This document shows positions 1 through 35,874 of a stretch of 64,000 bases of DNA, one piece after another (the stretch's first letter is position 1; each line of letters begins with the position of its first letter). The translations under genes and the position numbers were made by a program. The notes under the pieces are model-generated. The model ran no database searches. It saw nothing but the letters and a program-made list of their open reading frames with translations, and was not told where the DNA came from. Source of the DNA: a virus; the IMG/VR virus record IMGVR_UViG_3300006037_000006, positions 1-64,000 of that record; one strand, given 5' to 3'.

Positions 1-183
1 CCACCTCAATACAAATATCAATGCATCATTCTCAGATTTAAATCGTAATATTCTGGTTCTTTCAAACGGACCTGTCCAAGTAATAGACACCAATGAATTA
101 GATTCAACTTTTGTTAATTGTTCTTTTATTTTGATCCATCTGTCTGCGCTCAATGATACTGAGTAGTCTTCCAGTAATTTCAT
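1..183 (-). CDS. LRW-motif small protein, member 1 (3' end cut by window)
   Basis: ATG at 183 gives 61 codons that stay open to the window edge. The protein ends in ENDALIFVLRW, the same C-terminal signature as the genes that follow, so only one or two codons and the stop are missing. Its ATG overlaps the stop of the preceding gene as ATGA, and GAGGTGG sits just upstream as ribosome binding site. Function unknown. Confidence 0.8.
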   Translation of the reverse strand, partial: MKLLEDYSVSLSADRWIKIKEQLTKVESNSLVSITWTGPFERTRILRFKSENDALIFVLRW

Positions 184-392
184 GCCCACCTCAATACAAA
201 CACCACATACATTTTTGGATCATGCCACTTGACATTTAGTTTGTGATTTTTATTCTTACTTTTACCTATAGTTGCTTTATAGAATAATAATTTATCTTCA
301 ATGACTTCATCTGGTCCATGTGCATCAACAAAGTTATCAAAGTAAGATTTATTGTCGCCGTAGCGCCATCTGTTATATTGTCTTTTGATCAT
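180..392 (-). CDS. LRW-motif small protein, member 2
   Basis: 70 aa starting MIKRQYNRW. An upstream in-frame start exists, but the codons before this ATG merely read the conserved GAGGTGG region of the previous gene in another frame, so the ATG directly after GAGGTGGGC is preferred. C-terminus is MYVVFVLRWA. It is less Trp-rich than its siblings but keeps the ending. Overlaps the next gene by ATGA. Function unknown. Confidence 0.8.
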   Translation of the reverse strand: MIKRQYNRWRYGDNKSYFDNFVDAHGPDEVIEDKLLFYKATIGKSKNKNHKLNVKWHDPKMYVVFVLRWA

Positions 393-643
393 GCCCACCT
401 CAATATAAACCAAGTTCTGTGCTGTTCATTTTCAATTCTCCATAGACTATAATCACTATTGTCATCACTATTATATTTTTTACCAACCATATCTGCTTCA
501 ATGCCATTATCAAAGCACCATAGAAAAACTTCATTAGAAAAATCCGTAAACTTCCCAGTTAACCCTGCTTCTGATCTTAACACAATGTCAGTGTTTTCTG
601 GTTCAGCACCTACCCACTCTGTACTAGTAAATTTAATAGTCAT
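389..643 (-). CDS. LRW-motif small protein, member 3
   Basis: 84 aa from MTIKFTSTEW, ending RTWFILRWA. GAGGTGG lies about 11 nt before the ATG because the spacer between this gene and the one before is slightly longer than in the rest of the array. A 'WCFDNG' segment 50 residues before the end matches the W[CL]xxxxG block in members 5, 10 and 11. Unknown function; second half looks like the shared domain. Confidence 0.8.
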   Translation of the reverse strand: MTIKFTSTEWVGAEPENTDIVLRSEAGLTGKFTDFSNEVFLWCFDNGIEADMVGKKYNSDDNSDYSLWRIENEQHRTWFILRWA

Positions 644-648
644 GTTAC

Positions 649-900
649 TTATGCCCACCTCAGCACAAACCAAGCATACATTTTTTCATCAACTAACTTA
701 AATCCTACCAATTCACCATTGTTAGTATAATGACAGCGAACACCGCTGTCCCGCTCCAACCACTGTAACTCTAACTCTAGATATTTCTTGCTGGTGGTAG
801 TAAGAATACTTTGTTTCCATTTTCCAACCATACCAACAAACTGAGTACGGATACGAAACTGTTCAGTTACAGTTATATTATTTGGAATTAATTTTCTCAC
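649..900 (-). CDS. LRW-motif small protein, member 4 (GTG start)
   Basis: 83 aa if it starts at the GTG placed exactly where its siblings have ATG, two bases after GAGGTGG. Sequence begins VRKLIPNN and ends EKMYAWFVLRWA. It is followed by TAA rather than an ATGA overlap. Central part carries a basic/aromatic stretch and a GFKLVDEK turn before the signature. Unknown function. Confidence 0.78.
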   Translation of the reverse strand: MRKLIPNNITVTEQFRIRTQFVGMVGKWKQSILTTTSKKYLELELQWLERDSGVRCHYTNNGELVGFKLVDEKMYAWFVLRWA

Positions 901-1241
901 GACCACCTCAACATGAACCAAGCATAATCTTTCTCATCACGGAAGTAAATCTTATCTTCATACTTGTGTTCCCAACGACTCCAAGCATCGGGATTACGAG
1001 GATGTGGACCAAACTGTTCCCTACACCAATGTACAACATCAGTATAATCTTTAATGTTGAACTCTGCCACATACCAGTTGGCACGGGTAAATTTATACTT
1101 TGATTGTGGAGTATAGGTATATTTCATTCTAAAGAGTCCCCCAACCGGGCCTGTCATAGGTTGCACGCCTGTAATAGCTTTTGCCAGTAGAATTGGCAAT
1201 TGCTTACGAATCATATTAATTGTGGAATTGCTTATTGTCAT
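897..1241 (-). CDS. LRW-motif small protein, member 5
   Basis: 114 aa. N-terminal ~60 residues are specific to this gene. The C-terminal half shows the clearest version of the shared domain: WCREQFGPHP, then aromatic residues, a strand-like KIYFRDEKD, then YAWFMLRWS. Its start overlaps the stop of member 6 in an ATGA; no strong ribosome binding site is visible, so translation is probably coupled. Unknown function. Confidence 0.8.
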   Translation of the reverse strand: MTISNSTINMIRKQLPILLAKAITGVQPMTGPVGGLFRMKYTYTPQSKYKFTRANWYVAEFNIKDYTDVVHWCREQFGPHPRNPDAWSRWEHKYEDKIYFRDEKDYAWFMLRWS

Positions 1242-1630
1242 GAATATTTCAATGTTATCATCATAGCATCTACCTCATTGTTAGTTGCTACAAACACTTG
1301 GTCTTCGTCGTGCCGCAAGTCATTCATATAAAATTTACCATCCCACTTATCTCTATAGCCACGGGCAAAGTAATACACGGAACAGTCATCTAACTTTCGG
1401 TTAGGCCACATATACTGTCTAAATTCTTTGTTGGGGTACCAACCAAACGGCTCAGAAAAATCAAATATATTCGTAGATACTGGCAGTATGTACTTGAAGT
1501 TCATAAACATATTTTCAATCGTACTAGCACGTTGAACAACAGTTTCATCATACCACTTACGATGATCACGTGTTTGTTTATCAACACCAGTACGCCAAGT
1601 CAAATACTTGTCTTTAATATATTCTATCAT
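1238..1630 (-). CDS. LRW-motif small protein, member 6 (variant LKYS ending)
   Basis: 130 aa starting MIEYIKDKY at the ATG two bases after GAGGTGG (a GTG six bases upstream is only the read-through of the ribosome binding site). The longest member of the family. It ends DAMMITLKYS, a divergent form of the signature, with tyrosine for tryptophan. The altered codons remove the GAGGTGG box for member 5. Unknown function. Confidence 0.78.
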   Translation of the reverse strand: MIEYIKDKYLTWRTGVDKQTRDHRKWYDETVVQRASTIENMFMNFKYILPVSTNIFDFSEPFGWYPNKEFRQYMWPNRKLDDCSVYYFARGYRDKWDGKFYMNDLRHDEDQVFVATNNEVDAMMITLKYS

Positions 1631-1836
1631 ACCCACCTCAATGAAAACATGGTAGCATCAGTGCCTTGCCGAAAATAAAATACAGTATGGTCCCATTGAT
1701 AAACCACATTCCAGCGATTCTTTAAAGGACCATAATGTTCGCCTAGCCAAGTTTCTATTTCTATCAACTTGGTCTGACTTTGATCTAGATCCAGTTCTAC
1801 CTTGCAAGGCCACAGTTCTTTCTTCAATACTCTCAT
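1627..1836 (-). CDS. LRW-motif small protein, member 7
   Basis: 69 aa, start MRVLKKELW two bases after AAGGTGG. Contains WLGEHYGP, then YQWDHTVFYFRQ, then DATMFSLRWV. This is nearly the minimal shared domain: a helix-like W-L-G block, a beta-like aromatic strand, and the terminal signature. Overlaps member 6 by ATGA. Unknown function. Confidence 0.8.
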   Translation of the reverse strand: MRVLKKELWPCKVELDLDQSQTKLIEIETWLGEHYGPLKNRWNVVYQWDHTVFYFRQGTDATMFSLRWV

Positions 1837-2090
1837 AGCCACCTTAACTTAAACCAAGCTGCATCTTCTTTCTTCTCAAACACGAATGTTCTACTGTGTT
1901 TCTTGTATTTGCCCTTGCAGTTTTCATCAATCCATGTTTCAATGTCAATACTTTGGTAACGGTCTCTGTAATGATCTAAGTCTACCATAAACCAGCCTGA
2001 TTGAACTAATAGGTTAGCTAAAATTTCCCAGTCAATTTCATCTGCCATGATCTTACCCGCCGTCGCCGCCAACTCATCTTCTAATGTCAT
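1833..2090 (-). CDS. LRW-motif small protein, member 8
   Basis: 85 aa from MTLEDELAA; another ATG 21 bases upstream is possible. Contains WIDENCKGKY, TFVFEKKED and ends AAWFKLRWL. The acidic-acidic pair before AWF (KKEDAAWF) is the most canonical in the array. The start codon overlaps the TGA of member 9. Unknown function. Confidence 0.78.
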   Translation of the reverse strand: MTLEDELAATAGKIMADEIDWEILANLLVQSGWFMVDLDHYRDRYQSIDIETWIDENCKGKYKKHSRTFVFEKKEDAAWFKLRWL

Positions 2091-2305
2091 AGGTACTTTA
2101 AACTGAACCATGTTGCCAGCCCCTCTTTGTAAAAAGTGAATAAGGTATGTCTCTGCTCGGTGATGTCCTGTGGATCATCGGATTCTTGATGATAGTAATT
2201 AAAATCAAAATCAATTCCCTGTACATACCCCTTCTCACGCAACTCTCTTACTATATCCATTGCTGCTATTGCATTCTTGTTTTTTATTCTTACAAGTGAA
2301 CTCAT
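2087..2305 (-). CDS. LRW-motif small protein, member 9 (variant LKYL ending)
   Basis: 72 aa from MSSLVRIKN, two bases after GAGGTGG. Ends LATWFSLKYL. Has an 'ELREKGYVQG' helix and a strand FTFYKEG before the signature. Like member 6 the ending has LKY in place of LRW. Unknown function. Confidence 0.78.
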   Translation of the reverse strand: MSSLVRIKNKNAIAAMDIVRELREKGYVQGIDFDFNYYHQESDDPQDITEQRHTLFTFYKEGLATWFSLKYL

Positions 2306-2535
2306 TCCCACCTCAACATAAACCAAGCTAAGTGTTTGGACTCTTTAAATACAAAGGTAGTGTTACCAAACATGCTGTGCATAATCCAAACTTTGCCACC
2401 CATACCTTCCCAAGTTTCGGGAGTACTATAAGTCCAACCACCATTCCCAACATTGTCTAGGCACCAGCGTTCCATCTCACCGTTGAGATGATAACGATCC
2501 TTGCCGAATGTTGTCCAGCTTGCTGTATTACTCAT
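2302..2535 (-). CDS. LRW-motif small protein, member 10
   Basis: 77 aa from MSNTASWTT. Contains WCLDNVGNGG, a Trp-rich middle, TFVFKESKH and the ending LAWFMLRWE. GAGGTGG precedes the start by two bases, and the last codons TTGAGGTGGGAATGA supply the binding site and start of member 9. Unknown function. Confidence 0.8.
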   Translation of the reverse strand: MSNTASWTTFGKDRYHLNGEMERWCLDNVGNGGWTYSTPETWEGMGGKVWIMHSMFGNTTFVFKESKHLAWFMLRWE

Positions 2536-2780
2536 GACCACCTCAATATAAACCAAGATAAGTCTGCTTCATTATGGAACCAAAATTTTCTATTGTTCAT
2601 ATACCAACGAGCACCGGGTGTCCACACACCATCATTCGGAGTTGGACCAAATTGCGTCAGACACCAAATTTCCATATCAAACCAACCTTGATTGTACCAA
2701 TAAGGATCCCAATTTGGGTTAGGATCAACTGTATAGTATCGTGACCCCGAGACTCTGCCTTCACTTAGTTTTAGCTCCAT
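2532..2780 (-). CDS. LRW-motif small protein, member 11
   Basis: 82 aa from MELKLSEGR. Contains MEIWCLTQFGPTP, KFWFHNEADL and SWFILRWS, aligning end to end with the second half of member 5. Strongly aromatic (many Trp/Tyr). The start lies inside the last codons of member 12 (overlap of 10 bases). Unknown function. Confidence 0.8.
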   Translation of the reverse strand: MELKLSEGRVSGSRYYTVDPNPNWDPYWYNQGWFDMEIWCLTQFGPTPNDGVWTPGARWYMNNRKFWFHNEADLSWFILRWS

Positions 2781-3130
2781 CGCAATATCAACATTGTGTA
2801 AAGTTTTTCGTGAATGTCAAATTGACAACCACTCCATCCGTGTGCTAATGCTTCATAATGCCACTCTTTAGGTTGATTACGCAACCATGTACTGATATCT
2901 CTATTGCAGTGTACAGTATACCAAGTTGCACCATCTACTTCTGCTTTGCCATTTACCGAGAAAATAGGTTGTTTCGTCATTGATCCATACATTTCATTAA
3001 GCATAGTCTTATAGAGCATACTCTTGCCGGTTTGACGACCAGCGGCAAAGACAACTAGTTCTCCTTGCTTAAATCCACCTGCTTGCAGTTTATCATATAG
3101 TGCGTGTTGATAAGGTAGCAGATCGTTCAT
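2771..3130 (-). CDS. P-loop / LRW-motif fusion protein, member 12
   Basis: 119 aa. The first ~40 residues contain a Walker A motif GRQTGKS (about residues 31-37) preceded by GELVVFAA, the usual beta-strand of RecA-type or terminase-type P-loop folds. There is no room for a full ATPase core: the remainder is the LRW-type domain (RNQPKEWHYEALAHG ... LYTMLILRWS). So it looks like a P-loop N-terminus grafted to the array domain. Possibly a remnant of a bigger NTPase or a nucleotide-binding member of the family. Function unknown. Confidence 0.75.
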   Translation of the reverse strand: MNDLLPYQHALYDKLQAGGFKQGELVVFAAGRQTGKSMLYKTMLNEMYGSMTKQPIFSVNGKAEVDGATWYTVHCNRDISTWLRNQPKEWHYEALAHGWSGCQFDIHEKLYTMLILRWS

Positions 3131-3420
3131 TTGTATAGCTCCAATAACATTTTGTATTTGCTATATGCTGTTTCCAACGCAGGGTATTTACTGCGCAGGC
3201 GTGCTTCTTCGCTTCTAACACGATAGTCAACTTCTGCATGGTGATCTGCTTCAACTAAATGCTCAAATTCTTGCCTGGATAGTTCAATATCTACTACACT
3301 TTTACGGTCATCGTAATAATTCATTGACCTGCTATAGGTTTCAAAGCTGCTACGACCATGTTGGTAATCTACCCTGGCTCCGTAGCGTTGTACAAATTCG
3401 TGAATCATTTTTTCGTTCAT
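3127..3420 (-). CDS. Small conserved-type phage protein, 'PALxxAYxxYKML' ending
   Basis: 97 aa from MNEKMIHEF, directly after GAGGTGG. It lacks the LRW signature and instead ends YPALETAYSKYKMLLELYK. The ending resembles that of the 25101-25511 protein (TPAVVQAYDQYKMLDAL). Charged and probably helical. It sits inside the LRW array and is translated with it. Function unknown. Confidence 0.72.
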   Translation of the reverse strand: MNEKMIHEFVQRYGARVDYQHGRSSFETYSRSMNYYDDRKSVVDIELSRQEFEHLVEADHHAEVDYRVRSEEARLRSKYPALETAYSKYKMLLELYK

Positions 3421-3638
3421 TACGACCACCTCAATATAAACCAAATGTAATTTTGTTCTGTTGTAAAATGTACTGCTAACGTAGTAGAATCATGTCTGAC
3501 ATAATAATCGTGTCCGGGCAATCCTAAATTGACTAGCAACCATTCAAACACCTCATGCTGTTGCACTCTAGTATAAGGAATCTCTGCTATATGCTTAATA
3601 TCCTCCCGCCCCCAATAACTCTTTGATTTGTTTAGCAA
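3420..3638 (-). CDS. LRW-motif small protein, member 14 (start uncertain)
   Basis: Up to 72 aa, ending NYIWFILRWS. The reading frame opens at a TTG inside the 3' end of the zinc-finger-like gene. A strong GGGAGGA box lies further in, followed by ATT/ATA codons but no ATG, so the true start is unclear and could be non-standard. WLLVNLGLPG matches the W[CL]xxxxG block. Stop and next start overlap as TAATG. Function unknown. Confidence 0.65.
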   Translation of the reverse strand: MLNKSKSYWGREDIKHIAEIPYTRVQQHEVFEWLLVNLGLPGHDYYVRHDSTTLAVHFTTEQNYIWFILRWS

Positions 3639-4317
3639 CTTCAGGATCTCGTTTAAATTTGATTGCCCACTGTTCCGGGTCTATGTACTCTATGATCATT
3701 TTAACATGGTCTGGATTTAAAGTATCTAGAAAATGGGTACCACTGTTGCTCTGATACAACATCCATGGACTTATCTTGCCCGTTGTTATGGCATAGCAGA
3801 TTTTGTTCACATTCCCAAATCGTAATATGTCGTGTGACTGAATGTTTGCTGCTTTGGCTAATACTATAGAATGCTCAATGCCACGATGTATCGCATCAAA
3901 CGGATCCTCTTTGCGAAGGTAATCCTGCAAGAAGGTAGTATAAACTGAATCACTATGCCAGTTGTCTAGCTTGATATTTTCTTTGAGTAACCAATCAACA
4001 AAGCGGCTTACATTGACTACATTGACTTCACCACAATAAGTACCAAACTTTACAAAGGCAGTGTAGTATGCAGACTTAATAAATTCTTCATAGGTCTTAT
4101 TCTTAGTTCGGTTCATGCTGTTCTTGGTATAGAACTGCAACCAACACTGAAAGCCTAGTCGGTTACCTTTGATATCTTTGTTCAGCCATCTTTGCTTCTG
4201 TTCACATAGATGACTGATTAATGTTCGTTCTCGCACAAATTCACGATGACAAAACTCACAGGTATGCTTTGGCTCAACTGTTGCCACTATCTTTTTCATA
4301 TTGTTTAATTTCAGCAT
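3595..4317 (-). CDS. Zinc-finger-like hypothetical protein
   Basis: 240 aa, or 234 aa if it starts at MKKIVATVE (ATG at 4299). Near the N-terminus CEFCHREF...HLC reads as a C2H2/C2HC-type zinc finger (Cys-x2-Cys, 12 residues, His). The rest is helical with several Trp and no recognised domain. Its 5' end overlaps the preceding clamp-loader-like gene by about 40 bases, implying coupling. A nucleic-acid-binding role is likely from the finger alone; the family is not recognised. Confidence 0.75.
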   Translation of the reverse strand: MLKLNNMKKIVATVEPKHTCEFCHREFVRERTLISHLCEQKQRWLNKDIKGNRLGFQCWLQFYTKNSMNRTKNKTYEEFIKSAYYTAFVKFGTYCGEVNVVNVSRFVDWLLKENIKLDNWHSDSVYTTFLQDYLRKEDPFDAIHRGIEHSIVLAKAANIQSHDILRFGNVNKICYAITTGKISPWMLYQSNSGTHFLDTLNPDHVKMIIEYIDPEQWAIKFKRDPEVAKQIKELLGAGGY

Positions 4318-8065: not shown

Positions 8066-8305
8066 TTATTGACACTTCACGCCTTTGCCAAACTCATCCA
8101 TTACCTGACGAGTATGTCCCTGTTGACTAATGATAAATTTATAATTATCAATGCACCGCATTTCGGTCATGCCGTTGACGCCCCAACTGACGGTGTTATT
8201 ACTAGTTGATCCATTGACTGCACCTACTGCCATCATACCTAGAATAAGAACGATCACCACTACAATCATCATTTCAATGAGAGTGAAACCTTTTTGTTTA
8301 AACAT
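8066..8305 (-). CDS. Type IV prepilin-like protein
   Basis: 79 aa. Begins MFKQKG followed by FTLIEMMIVVVIVLILGMMA, an almost perfect class III (type IV pilin) signal: short basic leader, Gly at -1, Phe at +1, Glu at +5, then a hydrophobic helix. Two cysteines (MRCID and GVKCQ) bracket the last ~30 residues, like the D-region disulfide of pilins. Much shorter than a major pilin (~150 aa), closer to a minor or pseudo-pilin. The host prepilin peptidase would be needed to process it. Co-transcribed with the AAA ATPase gene immediately upstream. Confidence 0.85.
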   Translation of the reverse strand: MFKQKGFTLIEMMIVVVIVLILGMMAVGAVNGSTSNNTVSWGVNGMTEMRCIDNYKFIISQQGHTRQVMDEFGKGVKCQ

Positions 8306-13470: not shown

Positions 13471-13515
13471 AATAAATTTCCTTATTTCATTGACTTGGAG
13501 TCTGTTTTAATATTC

Positions 13516-13536
13516 GCTGCTTCACCATGAAGCAAC
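13516..13536 (-). promoter_or_regulatory. Hairpin in gp32-like mRNA leader
   Basis: Nine-base-pair stem (UUGCUUCA/UGAAGCA core, closed by G-U and G-C) with UGG loop, in the ~75-base leader. T4 gene 32 represses its own translation through a leader pseudoknot; this could be the analogue, but the second pseudoknot arm was not identified. Confidence 0.5.
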
Positions 13537-13549
13537 TAACATATGAGAT

Positions 13550-13577
13550 AGTATAACATACTTTTCTCTAATGTCAA
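13550..13577 (-). promoter_or_regulatory. sigma70-like promoter of gp32-like gene
   Basis: TTGACA, 16-base spacer starting TTAGAG, TATACT. Lacks the TTAAATGG box of the others. Confidence 0.75.
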
Positions 13578-13580
13578 GAG

Positions 13581-13587
13581 TATTTAT
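13581..13587 (-). promoter_or_regulatory. ATAAATA late-type box upstream of gp32
   Basis: ATAAATA immediately upstream of the sigma70 -35 box. Would give gp32 a second, late start. Low certainty since seven A/T bases occur often by chance here. Confidence 0.4.
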
Positions 13588-13599
13588 CACGGATGTGGG

Positions 13600-13626
13600 A
13601 AACCGCATAATTAAATGCGGTTTTTT
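13600..13626 (+). terminator. Terminator-like hairpin after 629-aa gene
   Basis: Stem AAACCGCAT/ATGCGGTTT with 6-base loop. Followed by TTTTTT on the plus strand and only TTTCCC on the minus strand, so the sequence reads best as a plus-direction terminator, but it is placed to end the minus-strand gene. Possibly bidirectional. Confidence 0.65.
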
Positions 13627-13632
13627 AACCCT

Positions 13633-15522
13633 TTATCTGCGATGATTCATTATCTGTTTTATACGATCTAATGGGTCACTGCTTTCGTTTGTACCAACTA
13701 AGCTACCTGGCTTAGCATAAGCATCTTTCGGGCTGAACTGTCCTGCTCTTTTTTGCCCTGAATCTAGGTCCTCTGCTACACCTTCCTTATCACCGGGGAC
13801 AATTATCCCGCGTCTTTTTAGTTCTGCTGCACCTCGCTGTGCTGCTGATTTACTACGTGGATCAGTTTGTCCATAATGACTATGTAGCGCATGTAATTGT
13901 TGTAGCTTTGCAGTTTTGATTTTAGACAAGTCAGATAATTCTTCTTCGGTGTCTTCTGCCACACCTTTTTGCGCAATCTTAGTAGTTGCCCTGGCAACAC
14001 CGCCGGCACGTTTTTCAGCACGTTTGTCTAACCATTCAGCTTCATCTTTCCATGCTGCACTTTGCTTGACATCACCGTGCTTCTTGCTATGGGCAGCTTG
14101 GTCTCTTGCGCCACCTGCGTCACGTTGGTCAGCGTGTACATCTTGGCCCGCTGATTTTGAGTAAGACTTCAGTGTACCTTTGCTTAGTTCATTAACTTGT
14201 TCTTCCGCTACATCCTTTTTGCCTTTGCTTAAAATGCTATGCATCTTTTTGGCAACTTCTTTATCAGATGGTCTTGCAGAACTCATAGCTTTGTTTAGAC
14301 TACTTACACCTTGCTTGACAACATCACCTGGCTTAGCCATTTTGCCGTAATGTTCTTTCTTGCCAGCATCAGGGTCACCACCATCACGGCTACCAGTATA
14401 ACCTTGTGAGTCCATTTCTTCTACTTCTTCTTTGCCCTTACTAAGAATGGCATGCATACGCTTTGCAACTTCTTTGTCAGATGGCTTGTTACTTTTAGTT
14501 GCTGCTTTTGGTGAGTCTCCGATGATATCGTCTGCCCATTCTTCTAATGCAATAGTCTCAGCCATTTCACTTGTTTCACTGATGTGCTTGCTTAACTTAC
14601 TTAATATTGGCATTACACTTTCAATGCGAGGGTCTAAACTGCTAGACATGAACATTTCGCTTAAGTCAACACTGTCTTCATCTTCCATCAATGATGGAGT
14701 ATAGCTTTCAAAGTAATTGTTGTAGCCACGCTTACCTGACATCTTGCCTAAACATTCACGTAGTTTCTGATAGTGATTGATGCCTTCAGTTACTAATTTT
14801 TGTGCTGATTCATTGAATTGATTATTACGAGTAGCACGAACAAATCCTGCCATCTTACCGTATTCTTCACATAAACCAGAGATATGATTCCAACGGTCAT
14901 CGTTAGCTTTTCCACCTTCTGCAATGTGTCTTGCGAACACACGTGCCAATCCAGGCTTGTCAGTTGGTGCTAGTGCTCTTTCACCAATTGAGTTTTCAAT
15001 AAAGATTTTGTCAATTTGACGGAATCGCTGTTCACCTTCTTCCATGTTACGCTTATGCTTGATAATCATCTTAGTTGTAGGGACAGTGTCGCTATAGCTG
15101 GCCTTCTTGCCCTGAGCATGATAACCTTCGTACATTGTTTCTTGCTTCTTTGTGTGTTCTCTTTTTGCCATATCGTTTTCCAAATTATCTAAATCTTCTA
15201 GTTTGAAACTAAGTTGTTTCATCATAGCGAATCTCTTTAGTGTTCTAACTAATTGTTCCCATGATTCGCTGTCGGCTGAACCGTTCTTGGGACTATTTGC
15301 TACTTTGTCGTCAAAATAAACAATAAGTTGATGTAATCCGTCAATTGATACATAGACTTTACCGTAACTTTCACCGTCTTTAACAAAGTCAATTTCAAAT
15401 ACTTCTGCTTCTTCAGGTACAGGAACTGCTTTACCATCACTGGATTTGCTGATAACAGAGCGGCCGCCCCTGCTAAGAATGTTTCTTAATTCTGCCCTTA
15501 GGCTTTCTTGTTTTTTTGACAT
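13633..15522 (-). CDS. Large hydrophilic protein beside terminase, possibly virion/prohead associated
   Basis: 629 aa, lysine/glutamate-rich. N-terminal ~130 residues look globular (YVSIDGLHQLIVYFDDKV). The C-terminal half contains two imperfect repeats, PSDKEVAKRMHAILSKGK (~375) and PSDKEVAKKMHSILSKGK (~455), and low-complexity A/K/G stretches with VAED linkers, ending DPLDRIKQIMNHR. No enzyme motif seen. Late-type box ATAAATA 4 bases before the ATG. A scaffold or internal head protein is one guess; not recognised. Confidence 0.7.
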   Translation of the reverse strand: MSKKQESLRAELRNILSRGGRSVISKSSDGKAVPVPEEAEVFEIDFVKDGESYGKVYVSIDGLHQLIVYFDDKVANSPKNGSADSESWEQLVRTLKRFAMMKQLSFKLEDLDNLENDMAKREHTKKQETMYEGYHAQGKKASYSDTVPTTKMIIKHKRNMEEGEQRFRQIDKIFIENSIGERALAPTDKPGLARVFARHIAEGGKANDDRWNHISGLCEEYGKMAGFVRATRNNQFNESAQKLVTEGINHYQKLRECLGKMSGKRGYNNYFESYTPSLMEDEDSVDLSEMFMSSSLDPRIESVMPILSKLSKHISETSEMAETIALEEWADDIIGDSPKAATKSNKPSDKEVAKRMHAILSKGKEEVEEMDSQGYTGSRDGGDPDAGKKEHYGKMAKPGDVVKQGVSSLNKAMSSARPSDKEVAKKMHSILSKGKKDVAEEQVNELSKGTLKSYSKSAGQDVHADQRDAGGARDQAAHSKKHGDVKQSAAWKDEAEWLDKRAEKRAGGVARATTKIAQKGVAEDTEEELSDLSKIKTAKLQQLHALHSHYGQTDPRSKSAAQRGAAELKRRGIIVPGDKEGVAEDLDSGQKRAGQFSPKDAYAKPGSLVGTNESSDPLDRIKQIMNHRR

Positions 15523-21223: not shown

Positions 21224-22179
21224 ACATTGTTAAAGTAAGGATCGTCCACTAACCACTTGTAATAGTTATAAAATCCCTCATCTACATCTACTTTAGGATC
21301 AAATCCAAAGTCTTTTCTAGCTGCATCAATGTTTAATGCACCTCTGCTAGGAAAATCTGCGTCTTTGTCACGAACATTAATGATACCTTTACCCACAATC
21401 TTAACAGCTAGTTCGGCTGCATCTAGTAATGTACGACTGTGGCTCTTTGTGATGTTGTATGTCTTGTTTATTGTGTTCTCACTCAATGCTGCTGATACAA
21501 TACCATCTGCTGCATCGTCTACATATGTGAAGTCTAGTGTTTCACCTGCCCCATTAACGTTGAGAATACCCCCACGCAGTGCGGTGAGCATAAATTTTGC
21601 GATGACTCTATCTTCCACATCCAAGGGGCCATATACAGCACTAGGGCGAATGATAGTATGATTGAAGCAACCACGGCGGCTGTAGTCTCTGACAAGTTCT
21701 TCTCCTGCTAGTTTCATAATTCCATATTGTCCTTGAGGTTTACAGATTGCATCCTCAGTTACATCATCAGTAAAGTCGCCATAGACCATACTAGAGCTAA
21801 TATACAAAAACTTCTGTACACTGTGTTGCTTGCTTAACTCACATAGGTTAAGTAATCCTTCTACCATTGTCTTTGCACCTAGCATAGGGTTATTGTTTAC
21901 AACCTTCTGTCTAGGAAAACTAGCCATGTGAATCACTAGTTCAAACTGGTACTTTTCAAACAAATAATCCATAGTGTCTGATACAATGTCTGCACTGTAG
22001 ATATGAGTAGTAGTAATTTTCTTTTGCCTCTCACTCATTAAGTACATGATTTCGCTAGGAGGAATTATTCCATAGTTAGTCCTAGTGTCAACAATGACAA
22101 CTTCATGTCCTAACTTTTCTAAACGCTGGACAACATTGTGTCCTATGAGACCGAGTCCGCCTGTTACTAAAATATTCAT
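21220..22179 (-). CDS. NAD-dependent sugar epimerase/dehydratase
   Basis: 319 aa. N-terminal Rossmann GGLGLIGHNVV (GxxGxxG), SSSMVYGD, and catalytic Tyr-Lys in YGIMKLAGEEL (YxxxK), with IRPSAVYGP. Extended short-chain dehydrogenase, UDP-glucose 4-epimerase or related nucleotide-sugar enzyme. Works logically with the nucleotide-sugar dehydrogenase and glycosyltransferases of the 39-55 kb region. Overlaps its upstream neighbour by 4 bases. Confidence 0.88.
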   Translation of the reverse strand: MNILVTGGLGLIGHNVVQRLEKLGHEVVIVDTRTNYGIIPPSEIMYLMSERQKKITTTHIYSADIVSDTMDYLFEKYQFELVIHMASFPRQKVVNNNPMLGAKTMVEGLLNLCELSKQHSVQKFLYISSSMVYGDFTDDVTEDAICKPQGQYGIMKLAGEELVRDYSRRGCFNHTIIRPSAVYGPLDVEDRVIAKFMLTALRGGILNVNGAGETLDFTYVDDAADGIVSAALSENTINKTYNITKSHSRTLLDAAELAVKIVGKGIINVRDKDADFPSRGALNIDAARKDFGFDPKVDVDEGFYNYYKWLVDDPYFNNV

Positions 22180-22502
22180 TTAAATTTCAATTCAAAATAT
22201 GTTATTTGCTGTGGAGTAAGATACGCTCTGATTTGATATATGTATCCGTATGTATTATGATCTGTGTTACGATGCCAGCTAGCTGTTGGTGCAGAGTTTT
22301 CCATTATCCACTTGCCTGCTTCTGTTTGCTGCCAGTTATATATGGGTTCTGCTGCTAACAAATCAGGGTCATCACAGTCATTCATTTTAAACGTGTGTAC
22401 GACACGAGTAACCGTGACAATGTGTTCACCTGTATCAGATATTCTTAGTTGCCTTGAAGGCAACATATCTTCATACAGCCATGTTTGCTTTGATAGAGCC
22501 AT
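22176..22502 (-). CDS. Conserved phage hypothetical protein
   Basis: 108 aa. Contains IYNWQQTEAGKWIMENS, ASWHRNTDHNTYGYIYQIRA and ends TYFELKFK, a pattern I associate with an unnamed T4-like phage family. Its ATG lies within the end of thyA, overlapping 32 bases. Function unknown. Confidence 0.7.
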   Translation of the reverse strand: MALSKQTWLYEDMLPSRQLRISDTGEHIVTVTRVVHTFKMNDCDDPDLLAAEPIYNWQQTEAGKWIMENSAPTASWHRNTDHNTYGYIYQIRAYLTPQQITYFELKFK

Positions 22503-24855: not shown

Positions 24856-25104
24856 TTATTTTGTACCCGACCAGCGTAACTCATACAGCATTGCTTCTGC
24901 TGGATCTTCAAAGGAAATATCATGTGTGGTTAAAAACACAAAATCATCGTCTTCGTCTCTGTCCGATAATGAATATCTACCTTGTAATTTAGCCATTACC
25001 CAAAGTAGTGATTTATCCGACAAGGGAGTATTGCACTTTACAAAGTGAGGTGGAGAGGATGCTAGCTTGCGGGTAGCATACCAAGCCAGTACATTTACAT
25101 TCAT
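24856..25104 (-). CDS. Distant LRW-motif small protein
   Basis: 82 aa. Near the C-terminus: ISFEDPAEAMLYELRWSGTK, the same F-x-acidic-A-(aromatic)-x-LRW arrangement as the 1-3638 array, but with four residues after LRW. This is 20 kb away from the array and shows the motif is not just a by-product of the GAGGTGG overlap, since here no gene starts after it. Function unknown. Confidence 0.7.
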   Translation of the reverse strand: MNVNVLAWYATRKLASSPPHFVKCNTPLSDKSLLWVMAKLQGRYSLSDRDEDDDFVFLTTHDISFEDPAEAMLYELRWSGTK

Positions 25105-25511
25105 TTTGTCAACGCATCAAGCATTTTATATTGATCGTATGCCTGAACAACCGCAGGTGTAGAATTACGACTTTTAGGTGCTACTTCAACCCAAACATCA
25201 TTGCTCAATTCAGGATGTATAAATTGATTACCCAAATTTACAAAGTTCCTAGGCTGATGAATCTTGCCAGTAGTATACAATCGGTTAGCAAGTGCTTCCA
25301 CTTCTTCCCATGGCTTGACTGAAAGATCATAGTCAGTTGAATTACGTGAAGTGTAGTTACCTTCTTGGTAATACATTTTTACTACACCGATAAAACGCTC
25401 TGTATCGAATGTCATAGTACGAGTGATGATCAATAATACATCTTCCTCGGACACTTCACCTATAAGAATGCTACGCAAACATCTACCCAAACTTGTTCCA
25501 ATATACATCAT
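25101..25511 (-). CDS. Conserved phage hypothetical ('YIGTSLGRCLRSIL')
   Basis: 136 aa. Contains GTSLGRCLRSILIGEVSEED, a TRTM segment, GKIHQPRNF, and the C-terminus TPAVVQAYDQYKMLDALTK, which resembles the 3127-3420 protein. I associate it with an unnamed large-phage family. Overlaps both neighbours by 4 bases. Function unknown. Confidence 0.72.
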   Translation of the reverse strand: MMYIGTSLGRCLRSILIGEVSEEDVLLIITRTMTFDTERFIGVVKMYYQEGNYTSRNSTDYDLSVKPWEEVEALANRLYTTGKIHQPRNFVNLGNQFIHPELSNDVWVEVAPKSRNSTPAVVQAYDQYKMLDALTK

Positions 25512-25879
25512 GTAATCACCTGTGTTTTCTTTAATACTCTATCACTATACAATTCATGACCCACATTGCGAATAGCATCTACCATTACTTGTGGGTCACT
25601 AGCAAATGTTTCTTTAATATCTTCTTCTGTCAACTCTGAATCAAAGGTGTAGATTTCATAGTGGCGTTGACTATTGTATCTTGCTCTAAGTATCATACTA
25701 TCCAACGGAACACCTCTAGGTGCCGGGGACCGTTTTTCCTCTTTCAGGATACTCCAGATATTTTCCTTACCCCATTGTTCATGTTCATCTAGCACAGTAG
25801 ATACATTGACTAGACATTCAAGTCCAGTCATGTCCCACATTGCCAAATACCTAGTTAGTTTCTTTTTTGATGAGCGCAT
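25508..25879 (-). CDS. Conserved phage hypothetical ('RYLAMWDMTGLECL')
   Basis: 123 aa. RYLAMWDMTGLECLVNVS, VPLDSMILRARYNSQRHYEI and DPQVMVDAIRNVG are conserved-looking blocks shared with T4-like phage proteins. No known domain. Overlaps neighbours, so part of the same translational unit as 25101-25511 and 25851-26087. Confidence 0.72.
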   Translation of the reverse strand: MRSSKKKLTRYLAMWDMTGLECLVNVSTVLDEHEQWGKENIWSILKEEKRSPAPRGVPLDSMILRARYNSQRHYEIYTFDSELTEEDIKETFASDPQVMVDAIRNVGHELYSDRVLKKTQVIT

Positions 25880-26087
25880 AAATCATTTTCACTTTATCTA
25901 ACGCATCAGCTAATGATACATTTGTTTTCGCTGCACGGTGAATGTTTCCCCATAGTTGACTTTCTTTCATCTGGATATAGAGGTCAGAATGACGGGTACT
26001 CTCACTGTGTAGAGTACGTTCGCTCTCACCTGCTTTGCGAACATACACCGTTTCCCCTTTATCGGGGGATTCATAAATGTCAGTCAT
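25851..26087 (-). CDS. Small hypothetical protein
   Basis: 78 aa, charged. YESPDKGETVYVRKAGE at the start, then SLADALDKVKMIYALIKKE, a helix ending similar to the 'YKML' small proteins. Overlaps its downstream neighbour by 29 bases and its upstream neighbour by 8. Function unknown. Confidence 0.62.
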   Translation of the reverse strand: MTDIYESPDKGETVYVRKAGESERTLHSESTRHSDLYIQMKESQLWGNIHRAAKTNVSLADALDKVKMIYALIKKETN

Positions 26088-31712: not shown

Positions 31713-32588
31713 TTAGAAATTCAGTTCCATACCGACACCAATTTTCTGAGTGTCAACTGCGGCGACTTCTTTAACATAACGAGCATGTAGCTTAGTGTTC
31801 TTGCTTAGAGCGTAAGTAGCACCTAGGTTATAAGCCTTAGTACCTTCTTTTTCACCATAGCTTGCAAGTGCAGTAACCGCACCCATAGCTTGATTGATAC
31901 CAATACTCTTACCAGTAGAATTTACACCAGCAATTGTATCATCGGAGTACATACTAAACAACGTAGTGTTTGAATATTTAAACTTAGCACCGTAGATGTT
32001 AGATGCACTTGTAGTACCGTTATCAAAACGAGCAATAGTAGCCGAAACTGGACCAGTTACATATTCAACGCTTGCGCCTTGACTATTAGTAGTACCTGCT
32101 ACTTCACTATTTGCATTTTGATAATTAACAGTCAATCCGTTGACTGGAGTAGCCGAAACGAACACTGCATTTTGAATGCGGGTACCTTGTGCGGCGTGAA
32201 TAACAGCGGTGCTAGAACCAAACACATTGCCCATAGCATCATAGTTGTCAAGAGTCTTGGCAACTGCGTGTTTGTCACGACCTGCTGCAATTGATCCAAG
32301 CGAATTGCTCAACCCAAAAGTTGCTGCACGGTCGCCCAATGTAGTTGCTGAGGGTGCGTCAACTGCAACAGTAGTCTCAATGAGAAAGTTTGCAGATAGA
32401 CCGTTGCCTAGCGCCTCTGTACCTTTGAAGCCCAAACGACTTGAATCATTGGTCAATGATGTGACTGCCGATGCAGTTCCAACTGTAGTGCTTTCTTCGT
32501 ACATGCGAACTTTACCATAAACAGTAACTTGCGCTTGCGCGATTCCCATAGCTGCTAGCATTGCGCCGGCGATTAAGATTTTCTTCAT
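31713..32588 (-). CDS. Outer-membrane porin (Porin_4 type)
   Basis: 291 aa. Signal peptide MKKILIAGAMLAAMGIAQAQ, then VTVYGKVRMYEES, as in porins of beta-proteobacteria (VTLYGxxDxG). Alternating beta strands throughout: SRLGFKGTEALGNGLSANFL, RDKHAVAKTLDNYD (partial L3-like loop), IYGAKFKYSNTTLF. Ends in VGMELNF, with terminal Phe for Bam recognition. Shorter than typical host porins (~330-380 aa), so loops are trimmed. Own strong promoter and terminator. Complete gene. Sits with other envelope genes. Confidence 0.9.
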   Translation of the reverse strand: MKKILIAGAMLAAMGIAQAQVTVYGKVRMYEESTTVGTASAVTSLTNDSSRLGFKGTEALGNGLSANFLIETTVAVDAPSATTLGDRAATFGLSNSLGSIAAGRDKHAVAKTLDNYDAMGNVFGSSTAVIHAAQGTRIQNAVFVSATPVNGLTVNYQNANSEVAGTTNSQGASVEYVTGPVSATIARFDNGTTSASNIYGAKFKYSNTTLFSMYSDDTIAGVNSTGKSIGINQAMGAVTALASYGEKEGTKAYNLGATYALSKNTKLHARYVKEVAAVDTQKIGVGMELNF

Positions 32589-34120: not shown

Positions 34121-34781
34121 GATTTTGTATTTTCTCGTAAACTTGATCCGCAGATAGTGTTTTAAAATCAACACCCAAGTTGACACGAAACTCAATGTTC
34201 TCTTTATAAGAATGCACCGAATGCCATTCATAGTGATTGAACAAAGTCCACACATTCTTTTTAAGCACGGTAGAAACAGCTTCTTCGCACTTGGTTATAT
34301 CCGGGATTCTATACTCAGGAATTAGATCAAACGGGGTAGTTTCTTTCCACCATTTAGTAATCTCATCTCCACCTTCAAGCAAGCAGAATAAACTTGCTTT
34401 TCTAAAATGACCTTTATGTGGATACAACATGCTTCCACCTGTACTTATTTGTACAATCGGAATCAGTTCATCCTTAGGTAGGAACGAAGGACATGCATCT
34501 TTAAATGCCTCATTCAATCGATCCGGTAAACTGTACTGTAAGAAACTAATTTGCGTTAGTGCATTAAATTTCTTAAGCATAGCAATGCGTCGAAACTTAA
34601 TCTCACGTGCGGCTTTAACGCCAATGTAAGATTCTATTTCACGGTAGGGAGTGTCATTGAGTATTCGGCGCCACTCTGGATTGCGCATGACTAATTCTTC
34701 AGGACGATTGTGACAGATGTCCAAGACTTCTGCTTGTATGTCGTCTGCAAACTTTAAATCTGTTTCTTTGAAGTATATCAT
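34113..34781 (-). CDS. 2-oxoglutarate/Fe(II) oxygenase-like protein
   Basis: 222 aa. YPHKGHFRKASLFCLLEGG and WTLFNHYEWHSVHSYKE ending IEFRVNLGVDF arrange His/His/Arg as in asparaginyl-hydroxylase-like double-stranded beta-helix enzymes (HxH...H..R). Tentative: metal ligands are guessed by position. Probably hydroxylates a protein or small molecule. Late-type ATAAATA box 5 bases before ATG, no ribosome binding site. Next to a desaturase, another oxygen-using iron enzyme. Confidence 0.55.
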   Translation of the reverse strand: MIYFKETDLKFADDIQAEVLDICHNRPEELVMRNPEWRRILNDTPYREIESYIGVKAAREIKFRRIAMLKKFNALTQISFLQYSLPDRLNEAFKDACPSFLPKDELIPIVQISTGGSMLYPHKGHFRKASLFCLLEGGDEITKWWKETTPFDLIPEYRIPDITKCEEAVSTVLKKNVWTLFNHYEWHSVHSYKENIEFRVNLGVDFKTLSADQVYEKIQNHV

Positions 34782-34786
34782 ATCTG

Positions 34787-34793
34787 TATTTAT
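34787..34793 (-). promoter_or_regulatory. Late-type promoter box (TATAAATA)
   Basis: TATAAATA-CAGAT-ATG for the oxygenase-like gene, directly after the tmRNA terminator. Confidence 0.72.
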
Positions 34794-34799
34794 ATGGGG

Positions 34800-34819
34800 A
34801 AAGGCTCCGAAGAGCCTTT
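34800..34819 (-). terminator. Terminator of the tmRNA gene
   Basis: Stem AAAGGCTC/GAGCCTTT with a stable TTCG tetraloop. Only CCCC follows, so it might also be an end-processing structure. Confidence 0.75.
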
Positions 34820-34833
34820 CTTTGTTATTTTCT

Positions 34834-35041
34834 GTTACGAGGTATAACTACCCTAGGCGTCATTTAAGCAGCCAATGCGTAAACTGAATCGTTTGCATTT
34901 ATGGTTTTTTGTGTCTACGACCAGGCTCCGTCTTTCTATGCTATGGGCATAGCGACTAAAGTTACCCTAATCCTACGGCTTCTACATTGCCGAGTTGTCC
35001 ATTTCTCTACTCTTGACCCAATCGATTACCGGAGCAGGCCC
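34834..35041 (-). ncRNA. tmRNA coding piece (5' half of tRNA-like domain plus tag)
   Basis: Starts GGGCCTG, followed by a D-loop-like GGTAATCGATTGGG (compare GGATTCGACGGG in E. coli). Mid-region contains hairpins, then AAAACCATAAAT before the resume codon GCA. The 3' border of the mature piece is estimated; it probably lies before the terminator. Confidence 0.8.
34864..34896 (-). other. tmRNA tag reading frame (ANDSVYALAA)
   Basis: GCA resume codon at 34896, then Asn-Asp-Ser-Val-Tyr-Ala-Leu-Ala-Ala and TAA. The AND...ALAA frame matches classical proteobacterial tags (ANDxxxALAA), whose ALAA end is read by ClpXP. Confidence 0.9.
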
Positions 35042-35042
35042 A

Positions 35043-35192
35043 TCATAAAGATTTTATTTCTTTCTTTGCTTCTTTCATACGTTCTTCCCATTTTAGGTTG
35101 AACAATACACAACAACCACATGACAAAAGTTTAAATTTTTTACCTTTAAGTTTTGCGTTGGCACCTGCTGTGCCATGATATATGCTTTTCAT
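35043..35192 (-). CDS. 49-aa protein encoded in the tmRNA intervening segment
   Basis: MKSIYHGTAGANAKLKGKKF followed by KLLSCGCCVLFNLKWEERM and KEAKKEIKSL. A strong AAGGAAG ribosome binding site ends 3 bases before the ATG and begins two bases after the CCA end of the tmRNA acceptor piece. The TGA stop is one base before the GGG that begins the coding piece. So the ORF fills the segment removed on maturation. Basic, with a CGCC cluster; resembles small phage proteins of the 'KxxKxLxCxCC' kind. Function unknown. A longer frame reading into the tRNA-like part is an artefact. Confidence 0.72.
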   Translation of the reverse strand: MKSIYHGTAGANAKLKGKKFKLLSCGCCVLFNLKWEERMKEAKKEIKSL

Positions 35193-35203
35193 AAACTTCC
35201 TTA

Positions 35204-35272
35204 TGGTGGACCTGGCGGGATTCGAACCCGCGTCTTGAATCCTTTTCAATCTACTTCATACAACAATAACTC
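35204..35272 (-). ncRNA. tmRNA acceptor piece (3' half of tRNA-like domain, CCA encoded)
   Basis: Contains TTGAA-AAGGA-TTCAA hairpin, GAC, the T-arm and CAGGTCC-A-CCA. A standard tRNA cannot be drawn: the bases that would be the 5' acceptor strand and anticodon arm are missing. A -10-like TATACT is at 35284-35279. Confidence 0.85.
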
Positions 35273-35286
35273 TTATTTAGTATAGT

Positions 35287-35874
35287 TTACTTGTTTGCTA
35301 AAGGATTGTCAATAGCTTTCTGTATCTTTTGGTCAATCTCTTTCTTCAATTGTTCCACTTCCTTGCCAATCTCTCTACGTGCCTGTGCCATTTCAGTACG
35401 CACTGCTGCTGCTTCTGCACGAGCTTTGTCTAGGTCTTCTCTAACACCCTTACGCATATCACGCATCTCACCTTCTGATTCACGTTGGGCTGTTTTAACA
35501 CTGCGTTCAACTTGTTCAGTAACTGTTTCGTTACGACGGATATCAGTCTTAAGATCATTCTTAATATCACGAGTGTAATCAGCAGTCTTACCAGATGTTT
35601 CTTCAATCACTGCTAGACGCTTATCAAATCCTGATAAGTCTGGTGCCGAGTATTCAGATATCTTCTTCTTCATACCTTGATAGTCTTTGTAAACTTCAAA
35701 TGCACCATACAGTCCACCCAACAAGGATGATACTAGTGTGAACGCAACCATTAGTTTAGCAGGAGTAAATTCATATCCTCCAATACTAATGACTGTATCC
35801 TTACTGGCATATTTTTTTGCTGCTGCTTCCATATCGTCAATCTTAGCATTAACGTCTTTAATTTCTTCTGTCAT
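35287..35874 (-). CDS. Membrane-anchored coiled-coil protein
   Basis: 195 aa. One hydrophobic segment (~residues 38-60, KLMVAFTLVSSLLGGLYGAF), then ~130 residues of charged coiled coil (KAQ/E/R-rich: SVKTAQRESEGEMRDMRKG, EVEQLKKEIDQKIQKA). Likely a type II or I membrane protein with a periplasmic or cytoplasmic coil. A pattern common in phages, unnamed. Translated with the 46-aa protein just upstream. Confidence 0.72.
   Translation of the reverse strand: MTEEIKDVNAKIDDMEAAAKKYASKDTVISIGGYEFTPAKLMVAFTLVSSLLGGLYGAFEVYKDYQGMKKKISEYSAPDLSGFDKRLAVIEETSGKTADYTRDIKNDLKTDIRRNETVTEQVERSVKTAQRESEGEMRDMRKGVREDLDKARAEAAAVRTEMAQARREIGKEVEQLKKEIDQKIQKAIDNPLANK

Follow-up and report, generated by a model that had tools for sequence, protein, structure and literature searches.

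A hypervariable tandem array of small, modular proteins in uncultured T4-like jumbo phages

The window analysed here, which covers the first 64 kb of an IMG/VR virus contig of 92,319 bases (IMGVR_UViG_3300006037_000006), opens at positions 1-3638 with a row of 14 short open reading frames (ORFs) on the minus strand, most of which overlap their neighbour by a few bases. Comparison with related loci shows this array to be a hypervariable island of tandem, translationally coupled genes that is found in a clade of uncultured T4-like jumbo phages. Such arrays evolve as diverged paralogues are gained, lost and shuffled, with purifying selection throughout. In two subgroups of the family the segment in front of a common C-terminal domain is exchanged between members, and the best of these segments is related to the major capsid protein, gp23.

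An earlier note on this DNA, made from its letters alone, had described an array of small paralogues at this place, and the ORFs and their coordinates are confirmed. Twelve of the 14 (members are designated m01 to m12 and m14) end in [F/L]xL[RK][WY] followed by at most one extra residue; the exceptions are m06, a diverged thirteenth ending MMITLKYS, and the ORF at 3127-3420, which is without the motif. The ORF at 3127-3420 is not a member. m09, ending FSLKYL, is a diverged variant, as is m06 with its ITLKYS. A hidden Markov model (HMM) of the domain, seeded with 11 members and iterated over the six-frame ORFs of the window's contig and 79 related loci, collected 334 members at E<0.01 among 9,934 ORFs; neither the reversed ORFs nor the opposite strand of the oriented loci gave any. 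From the window's contig it took m02-m05, m07-m11 and m14 at that threshold; it stayed below significance for m12 (E=0.2-0.3) and m06 (E=9), which were assigned via homology to clearer relatives and not directly. For m06 (1238-1630) that relative is L108 993-1400 (phmmer E=9e-4), itself a domain member at E=6e-10. m05 and m11 align over 63 residues (E=4e-10), so similarity is not limited to the last eight residues, as it would have been under the outcome that the note named as refuting its reading. The proposal of a single family with differing N-termini is borne out.

Could the array nonetheless be a mere coincidence of C-termini, convergent since LRW encodes a Shine-Dalgarno sequence? The LRW codons are indeed heavily biased to TTGAGGTGG, the terminal Arg being AGG in 86 of 151 cases as against 48 of 680 in gene bodies and TTG the usual codon for the Leu. 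Of 180 gene ends, 126 overlap the following start or directly adjoin it. From this codon bias and these overlaps it follows that TTGAGGTGG, right before the overlapping ATGA, is probably the ribosome-binding site of the next gene. Yet the homology spans 50-60 residues, the predicted fold is common, and some members retain the domain while ending in LKY or LWK. Chance or convergent C-termini are ruled out by the HMM with its reversed-ORF and opposite-strand controls; the coincidence reading is refuted, and we leave it a vanishingly small probability. The array exemplifies a protein C-terminus moulded by having also to encode a ribosome-binding site for the gene that follows, as well as domain shuffling within a phage operon. 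A repeated junction sequence, a 42-nucleotide family with seven copies in the window, may act as a seed of recombination.

The AlphaFold2 model of m05 (897-1241) is confident for residues 61-114, with a block mean pLDDT (predicted local distance difference test) of about 89-96. The gp23-related arm module occupies residues of about 6-51 and the domain residues 57-114, in the order strand-helix-strand-strand-helix, with DEKDYAWFMLRW as the final helix. The model of m09 (2087-2305; pLDDT 85), which belongs to a distant subgroup, has an identical order of strands and helices, and the two subgroups are thereby predicted to have a compact beta-alpha-beta-beta-alpha fold in common, in agreement with the shared alpha/beta domain that had been suggested earlier. 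Foldseek gave no significant match of the domain to solved structures in the PDB (best E=1.3), and the predicted viral structures resembling it are only hypothetical proteins of uncultured phages. No significant or recurrent match to the domain was obtained in Pfam, PHROGs or NCBIfam; most of the weak Pfam and PHROG matches of single members (E 0.005-0.05) are no better than chance and were disregarded. PADLOC found no match of array members to known anti-phage defence proteins and returned only HNH/homing endonuclease models, for one protein nearby. On profile searches, the domain is outside every family catalogued in Pfam, PHROG, NCBIfam and PADLOC. Two well conserved members had no relative in a cultured-phage search of 50,697 phage records.

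Two groups of C-domain matter for what follows, 'K' (KYKFxRAxW...PDAWSRW) and 'N' (W[IV]xxQ...EELLTWLTLRW). The K member m05 matches Pfam Gp23 (PF07068) at E=1.5e-9, with 38.2 bits against a curated cut-off of 24.4, and PHROG 138 at E=3.5e-9. Arm fusions like that of m05 are present in L107, L108, L127, L128, L050, L143, L146, G045, G046 and other relatives; further Gp23 fusions score 23-47 bits against PF07068, and among 118 further array-region proteins Gp23 was the recurrent Pfam match (nine members, best E=2.2e-12). The arm aligns with T4 gp23 91-131, that of the L050 type only with 95-118. The fusions are not full-length capsid proteins: they have 90-140 residues and cover only PF07068 positions of about 2-58 (arm) or 166-225 (helix). 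The near-complete relatives G046 (364 kb) and G045 (374 kb) carry core-protein fusions and alongside them encode an intact gp23 of 398-402 residues; arms match the gp23 of their own lineage at E down to 2e-11. Judged from its sequence, the arm module is certainly related to the major capsid protein. In comparisons of arms, synonymous sites are close to saturation or past it, nucleotide identity is 0.45-0.57 and protein identity 0.41-0.50. As protein identity is kept in spite of such near-saturation, the arm would act as a peptide and not as DNA; conservation at the DNA level, as a homing or recombination site, is unlikely in view of the nucleotide identity and the synonymous sites. Capture of the arm from a rival's gp23 is unsupported, the distance to own and foreign gp23 being equal. 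A pattern scan of GTDB genomes with one arm fusion yielded no relative.

The arm alignment overlaps the reported activator of the Lit protease, Gol, the limits of which we take to be about gp23 93-121. This 29-residue stretch, in the first quarter of gp23, is the most conserved portion of the protein; it binds EF-Tu and activates Lit (PMC3014915). A gp23-arm/N fusion also occurs as a lone gene outside the array (G046 13507-13854; L149, L151, L152 and L153), flanked by epimerase and aminotransferase-like genes; the equivalent place in the window is without it.

Other modules were sought by running HMMs over 827 core ORFs from G045 and G046. That for the 'AKEID' helix module, which is present in m08 (1833-2111) and about 20 relatives, had both gp23 proteins as its top two matches (E=0.001 and 0.004, against 0.4 for the third), at VEAEIMAALAQEITAEIDQEIL. 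None of 100 column shuffles gave both gp23s as the top two, and one shuffle equalled the best E-value. Pfam Gp23 matches at positions 166-225 occur in five contigs at E=2.6e-4 to 8.9e-4 per record. A module combining a P-loop with [ST]NLCxEI (L044, L133, L135, L141, L142 and G045) retrieved gp41 at 3.5e-4 and NrdA at 4.6e-4, behind an array relative, with 0.016 the best of 60 shuffles. m12 has the P-loop only; phmmer relates it to the gp41 helicases of relatives at E=6e-4 to 3e-4, and against Pfam DnaB_C it reaches E=0.04 and 13.8 bits as compared with a cut-off of 27, only the P-loop segment being present. For the NrdA barrel domain, of which only the SNLCxEI segment is present, scores of 10-12 bits fall below the cut-off of 23.9. 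One G046 member has IYNSNLCKEIL joined to GAYYAPYIPTIM, where its own gp23 has AFYCPYIPLMSS, and another starts NFLDSDVNSMYPHVV, where its own DNA polymerase has GAVDINSLYPSTI; both matches are short and no more than suggestive. Taken at the level of alignments, modules from gp41 (P-loop), NrdA (active site) and gp23 (spine helix) are probable, and one from motif A of DNA polymerase is suggestive. The gp23 arm and the P-loop are each present on both K and N C-domains, and in aligned members of these subgroups the N-terminus is shown to be an exchangeable module.

The nrdA gene of a 139-kb relative, G001 (L088 12968-15358), has a peculiarity of its own: its Pfam match is split at positions 222/223 by about 890 nucleotides of open frame. 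The extra stretch may be an intein or an insertion of another kind, and was considered as a possible link of the NrdA segment to an intein; in the part scanned, no intein domain was matched by Pfam.

The 79 IMG/VR loci were retrieved with the conserved gene flanking the array upstream (3595-4317, minus strand; PHROG 11058), which serves as the locus marker in relatives. Cultured phages with a PHROG 11058 gene are mainly jumbo myoviruses, for instance Atu_ph07, Phosso, PA5oct, SCTP-2 and Munch, and the annotated regions of these five hold no comparable array. In most uncultured relatives the array stands between the PHROG 11058 gene and a DEDD-exonuclease-like gene. Its size ranges from no genes to more than 20, the gene order changes among loci, and other accessory genes are interspersed; in G046 there are two, one at 51-58 kb and the other at 200-205 kb, and the single array of G045 spans about 10 kb. 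Clustering of 414 array ORFs from 47 loci gave 103 clusters, 37 of them singletons, and such hypervariability upholds the accessory character that had been proposed. The ratio of nonsynonymous to synonymous substitution rates (dN/dS) has a median of 0.20 over 605 orthologous pairs, none of them above 1, and of 0.21 among 473 pairs of domain members. Since paralogues have diverged (identity in the array is about 20-40%), arrays differ between relatives and selection is purifying, the family is old and reshuffled. The same three observations rule out the recent amplification that the earlier note had inferred. Genes for an HNH-type endonuclease and a methyltransferase occur at or inside array loci (L022 5413-5814 and others), with a possible role in mobility.

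In the open-access literature we found no precedent for tandem genes that mix fragments of the phage's own core proteins onto a common scaffold. K and N members bear N-terminal stretches of about 25-45 residues related to T4 gp23 (PF07068) 91-131, but are without the remainder of that 400-520-residue capsid protein, and their C-terminal domain is unrelated to it. Likeness to gp41 (DnaB_C) is restricted to a short segment around the P-loop, and likeness to NrdA to one around the SNLCxEI active site; the array holds isolated motifs of 11-35 residues in small proteins, and enzyme activity is not expected of them. The hypervariable accessory and anti-defence clusters of large phages likewise consist of tiny, coupled genes that vary and follow one another at a fixed place, whereas the array is mostly one domain family with core-protein modules swapped among its members. 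With Lit/Gol/EF-Tu exclusion and with capsid-sensing immunity (CapRel, TIR) the point of contact is that the arm covers the reported Lit activator region, which is a lead only.

As to function, the array may supply small binding proteins that serve as weapons in conflict with hosts or with other phages. Proteins of the K and N subgroups would display copies of the phage peptides that are most conserved and so work as competitive decoys or baits, engaging host factors able to recognise the source proteins, in the case of the gp23 arm for example EF-Tu or Lit-type or capsid-sensing immunity, and the variable domain would provide a second interaction. Decoys or baits are favoured because the best module coincides with a peptide known to be read by a host and because the arrays resemble arms-race loci. 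The whole of this, a shuffled array with core-protein modules that forms a conflict arsenal with K/N decoys, is the overall best explanation, held tentatively and at somewhat short of an even chance. We are more doubtful of its narrower form, in which the array is a reshuffled library whose front ends are signature peptides (the capsid arm, the P-loop of the helicase, the active sites of reductase and polymerase) copied from essential proteins of the phage itself and serving as decoys against host sensors. Several points weigh against such readings. The domain has no structural homologue among solved structures, and array members match no known defence or anti-defence proteins in PADLOC. A sensor of gp23 would equally detect the phage's own gp23. 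Recognisable core modules are found in just about 1-4 genes per array, most N-termini being unexplained, and the NrdA, P-loop and polymerase matches are short (11-30 residues). Since a source motif remains recognisable only if it is among the best conserved, the seeming preference for signature motifs may be a bias of observation, and the pattern of 'most conserved peptides' an artefact of ascertainment. If the fusions are decoys, they would reveal directly which conserved phage peptides are read by bacterial immunity, and would provide natural inhibitors of small size for its sensors. Because the Lit-activating Gol region recurs among them, this could be tested immediately in Escherichia coli.

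Among other accounts is that of a gene nursery, in which new small ORFs would arise at the repeated gene junctions through tandem duplication and illegitimate recombination, the core-gene fragments being by-products without a common function. The seven-copy junction repeat, the many singleton clusters and the interspersed unrelated genes, HNH nucleases included, are what it would lead one to expect; dN/dS of about 0.2 throughout is not, nor is the retention of the gp23-arm/K fusion by six or more distinct sequences whose synonymous sites are close to saturation or past it, nor the limitation of modules to two C-domain groups, and we regard it as unlikely. More improbable still is interference between phages. 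On this view the modules, taken from conserved T4-like proteins (capsid, helicase, ribonucleotide reductase), would work against co-infecting relatives as dominant-negative or poisoning fragments. Their sources are core T4-like proteins common to competitors, the fragments are truncated and unable to work as whole enzymes, and hypervariable arrays are consistent with conflict. However, the arms are as near to own-lineage as to foreign gp23, so that self-poisoning would be expected, and catalytic motifs of 11-30 residues are improbable dominant negatives. An equally slim chance is given to a role in the virion or its assembly, with gp23 segments letting small proteins join or regulate the prohead, be it for packaging and delivery (compare the T4 internal proteins) or for tuning capsid size. 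gp23 is the source of the commonest and strongest module and perhaps of a second (spine helix) and a third (YxPYIP) segment, and the arm fusion is also a single gene at a conserved site in four contigs; but gp41, NrdA and polymerase modules substitute for the gp23 arm on the same C-domain, and extreme variation in copy number is atypical of structural genes.

Gene by gene, the array reads on the minus strand from m14 (3420-3638; WFILRWS, HMM E=7e-13), its first gene, which overlaps the flanking gene, to m01 (1-183; ending FVLRW, E=4e-4, open-ended), which is truncated by the contig end. The interspersed, motif-less ORF at 3127-3420, with the C-terminus YSKYKMLLELYK (LLELYK), is followed by m12 (2771-3130) of the N subgroup, in which the P-loop fragment GGFKQGELVVFAAGRQTGKSML precedes a diverged domain (LILRWS). 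Next come m11 (2532-2780; SWFILRWS, E=3e-11), m10 (2302-2535; AWFMLRWE, E=2e-12), m09 (TWFSLKYL, E=0.002) and m08 (AWFKLRWL, E=4e-12), in which the module HMM marks the N-terminal 'LEDELA..MADEIDWEIL', similar to the spine helix of gp23. m07 (1627-1836; MFSLRWV, E=4e-13) lies before m06 and m05 (domain HMM E=1e-17), and the GTG start of m04 (649-900; AWFVLRWA, E=1e-7) overlaps the stop of m05. The last before m01 are m03 (389-643; TWFILRWA, E=4e-8) and m02 (180-392; VVFVLRWA, E=4e-5), which has orthologues in L009, L044 and G046.

Outside the array, 24856-25104 (minus strand), correctly proposed as a further member, is a single-copy relative of the domain (HMM E=2-3e-4) placed before a DHFR-ThyA block; it is also single-copy in G001, where its neighbours, an MSFLRHVGK protein, DHFR and ThyA, are conserved. 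22176-22502 (minus strand) is a possible further relative at E=0.78; its G045 homologue (E=1.1e-3) is located within the G045 array. A second type of small protein, with a common C-terminus (xAYxxYKMLxxL or similar), is encoded on the minus strand at 3127-3420, 25101-25511 and 25851-26087, one copy within the array and two adjoining the single-copy domain gene.

Elsewhere in the window, again on the minus strand, ARAGORN finds a transfer-messenger RNA at 34773-35296 with the tag ANDSVYALAA; Pelagibacter phage Mosig likewise has an annotated transfer-messenger RNA. A Gram-negative porin gene is present in this phage genome at 31713-32588 (Porin_4, E=1.5e-26), and near the replication genes 8066-8305 encodes a 79-residue protein with a type IV pilin-like N-terminal methylation motif (N_methyl, E=2.7e-9).

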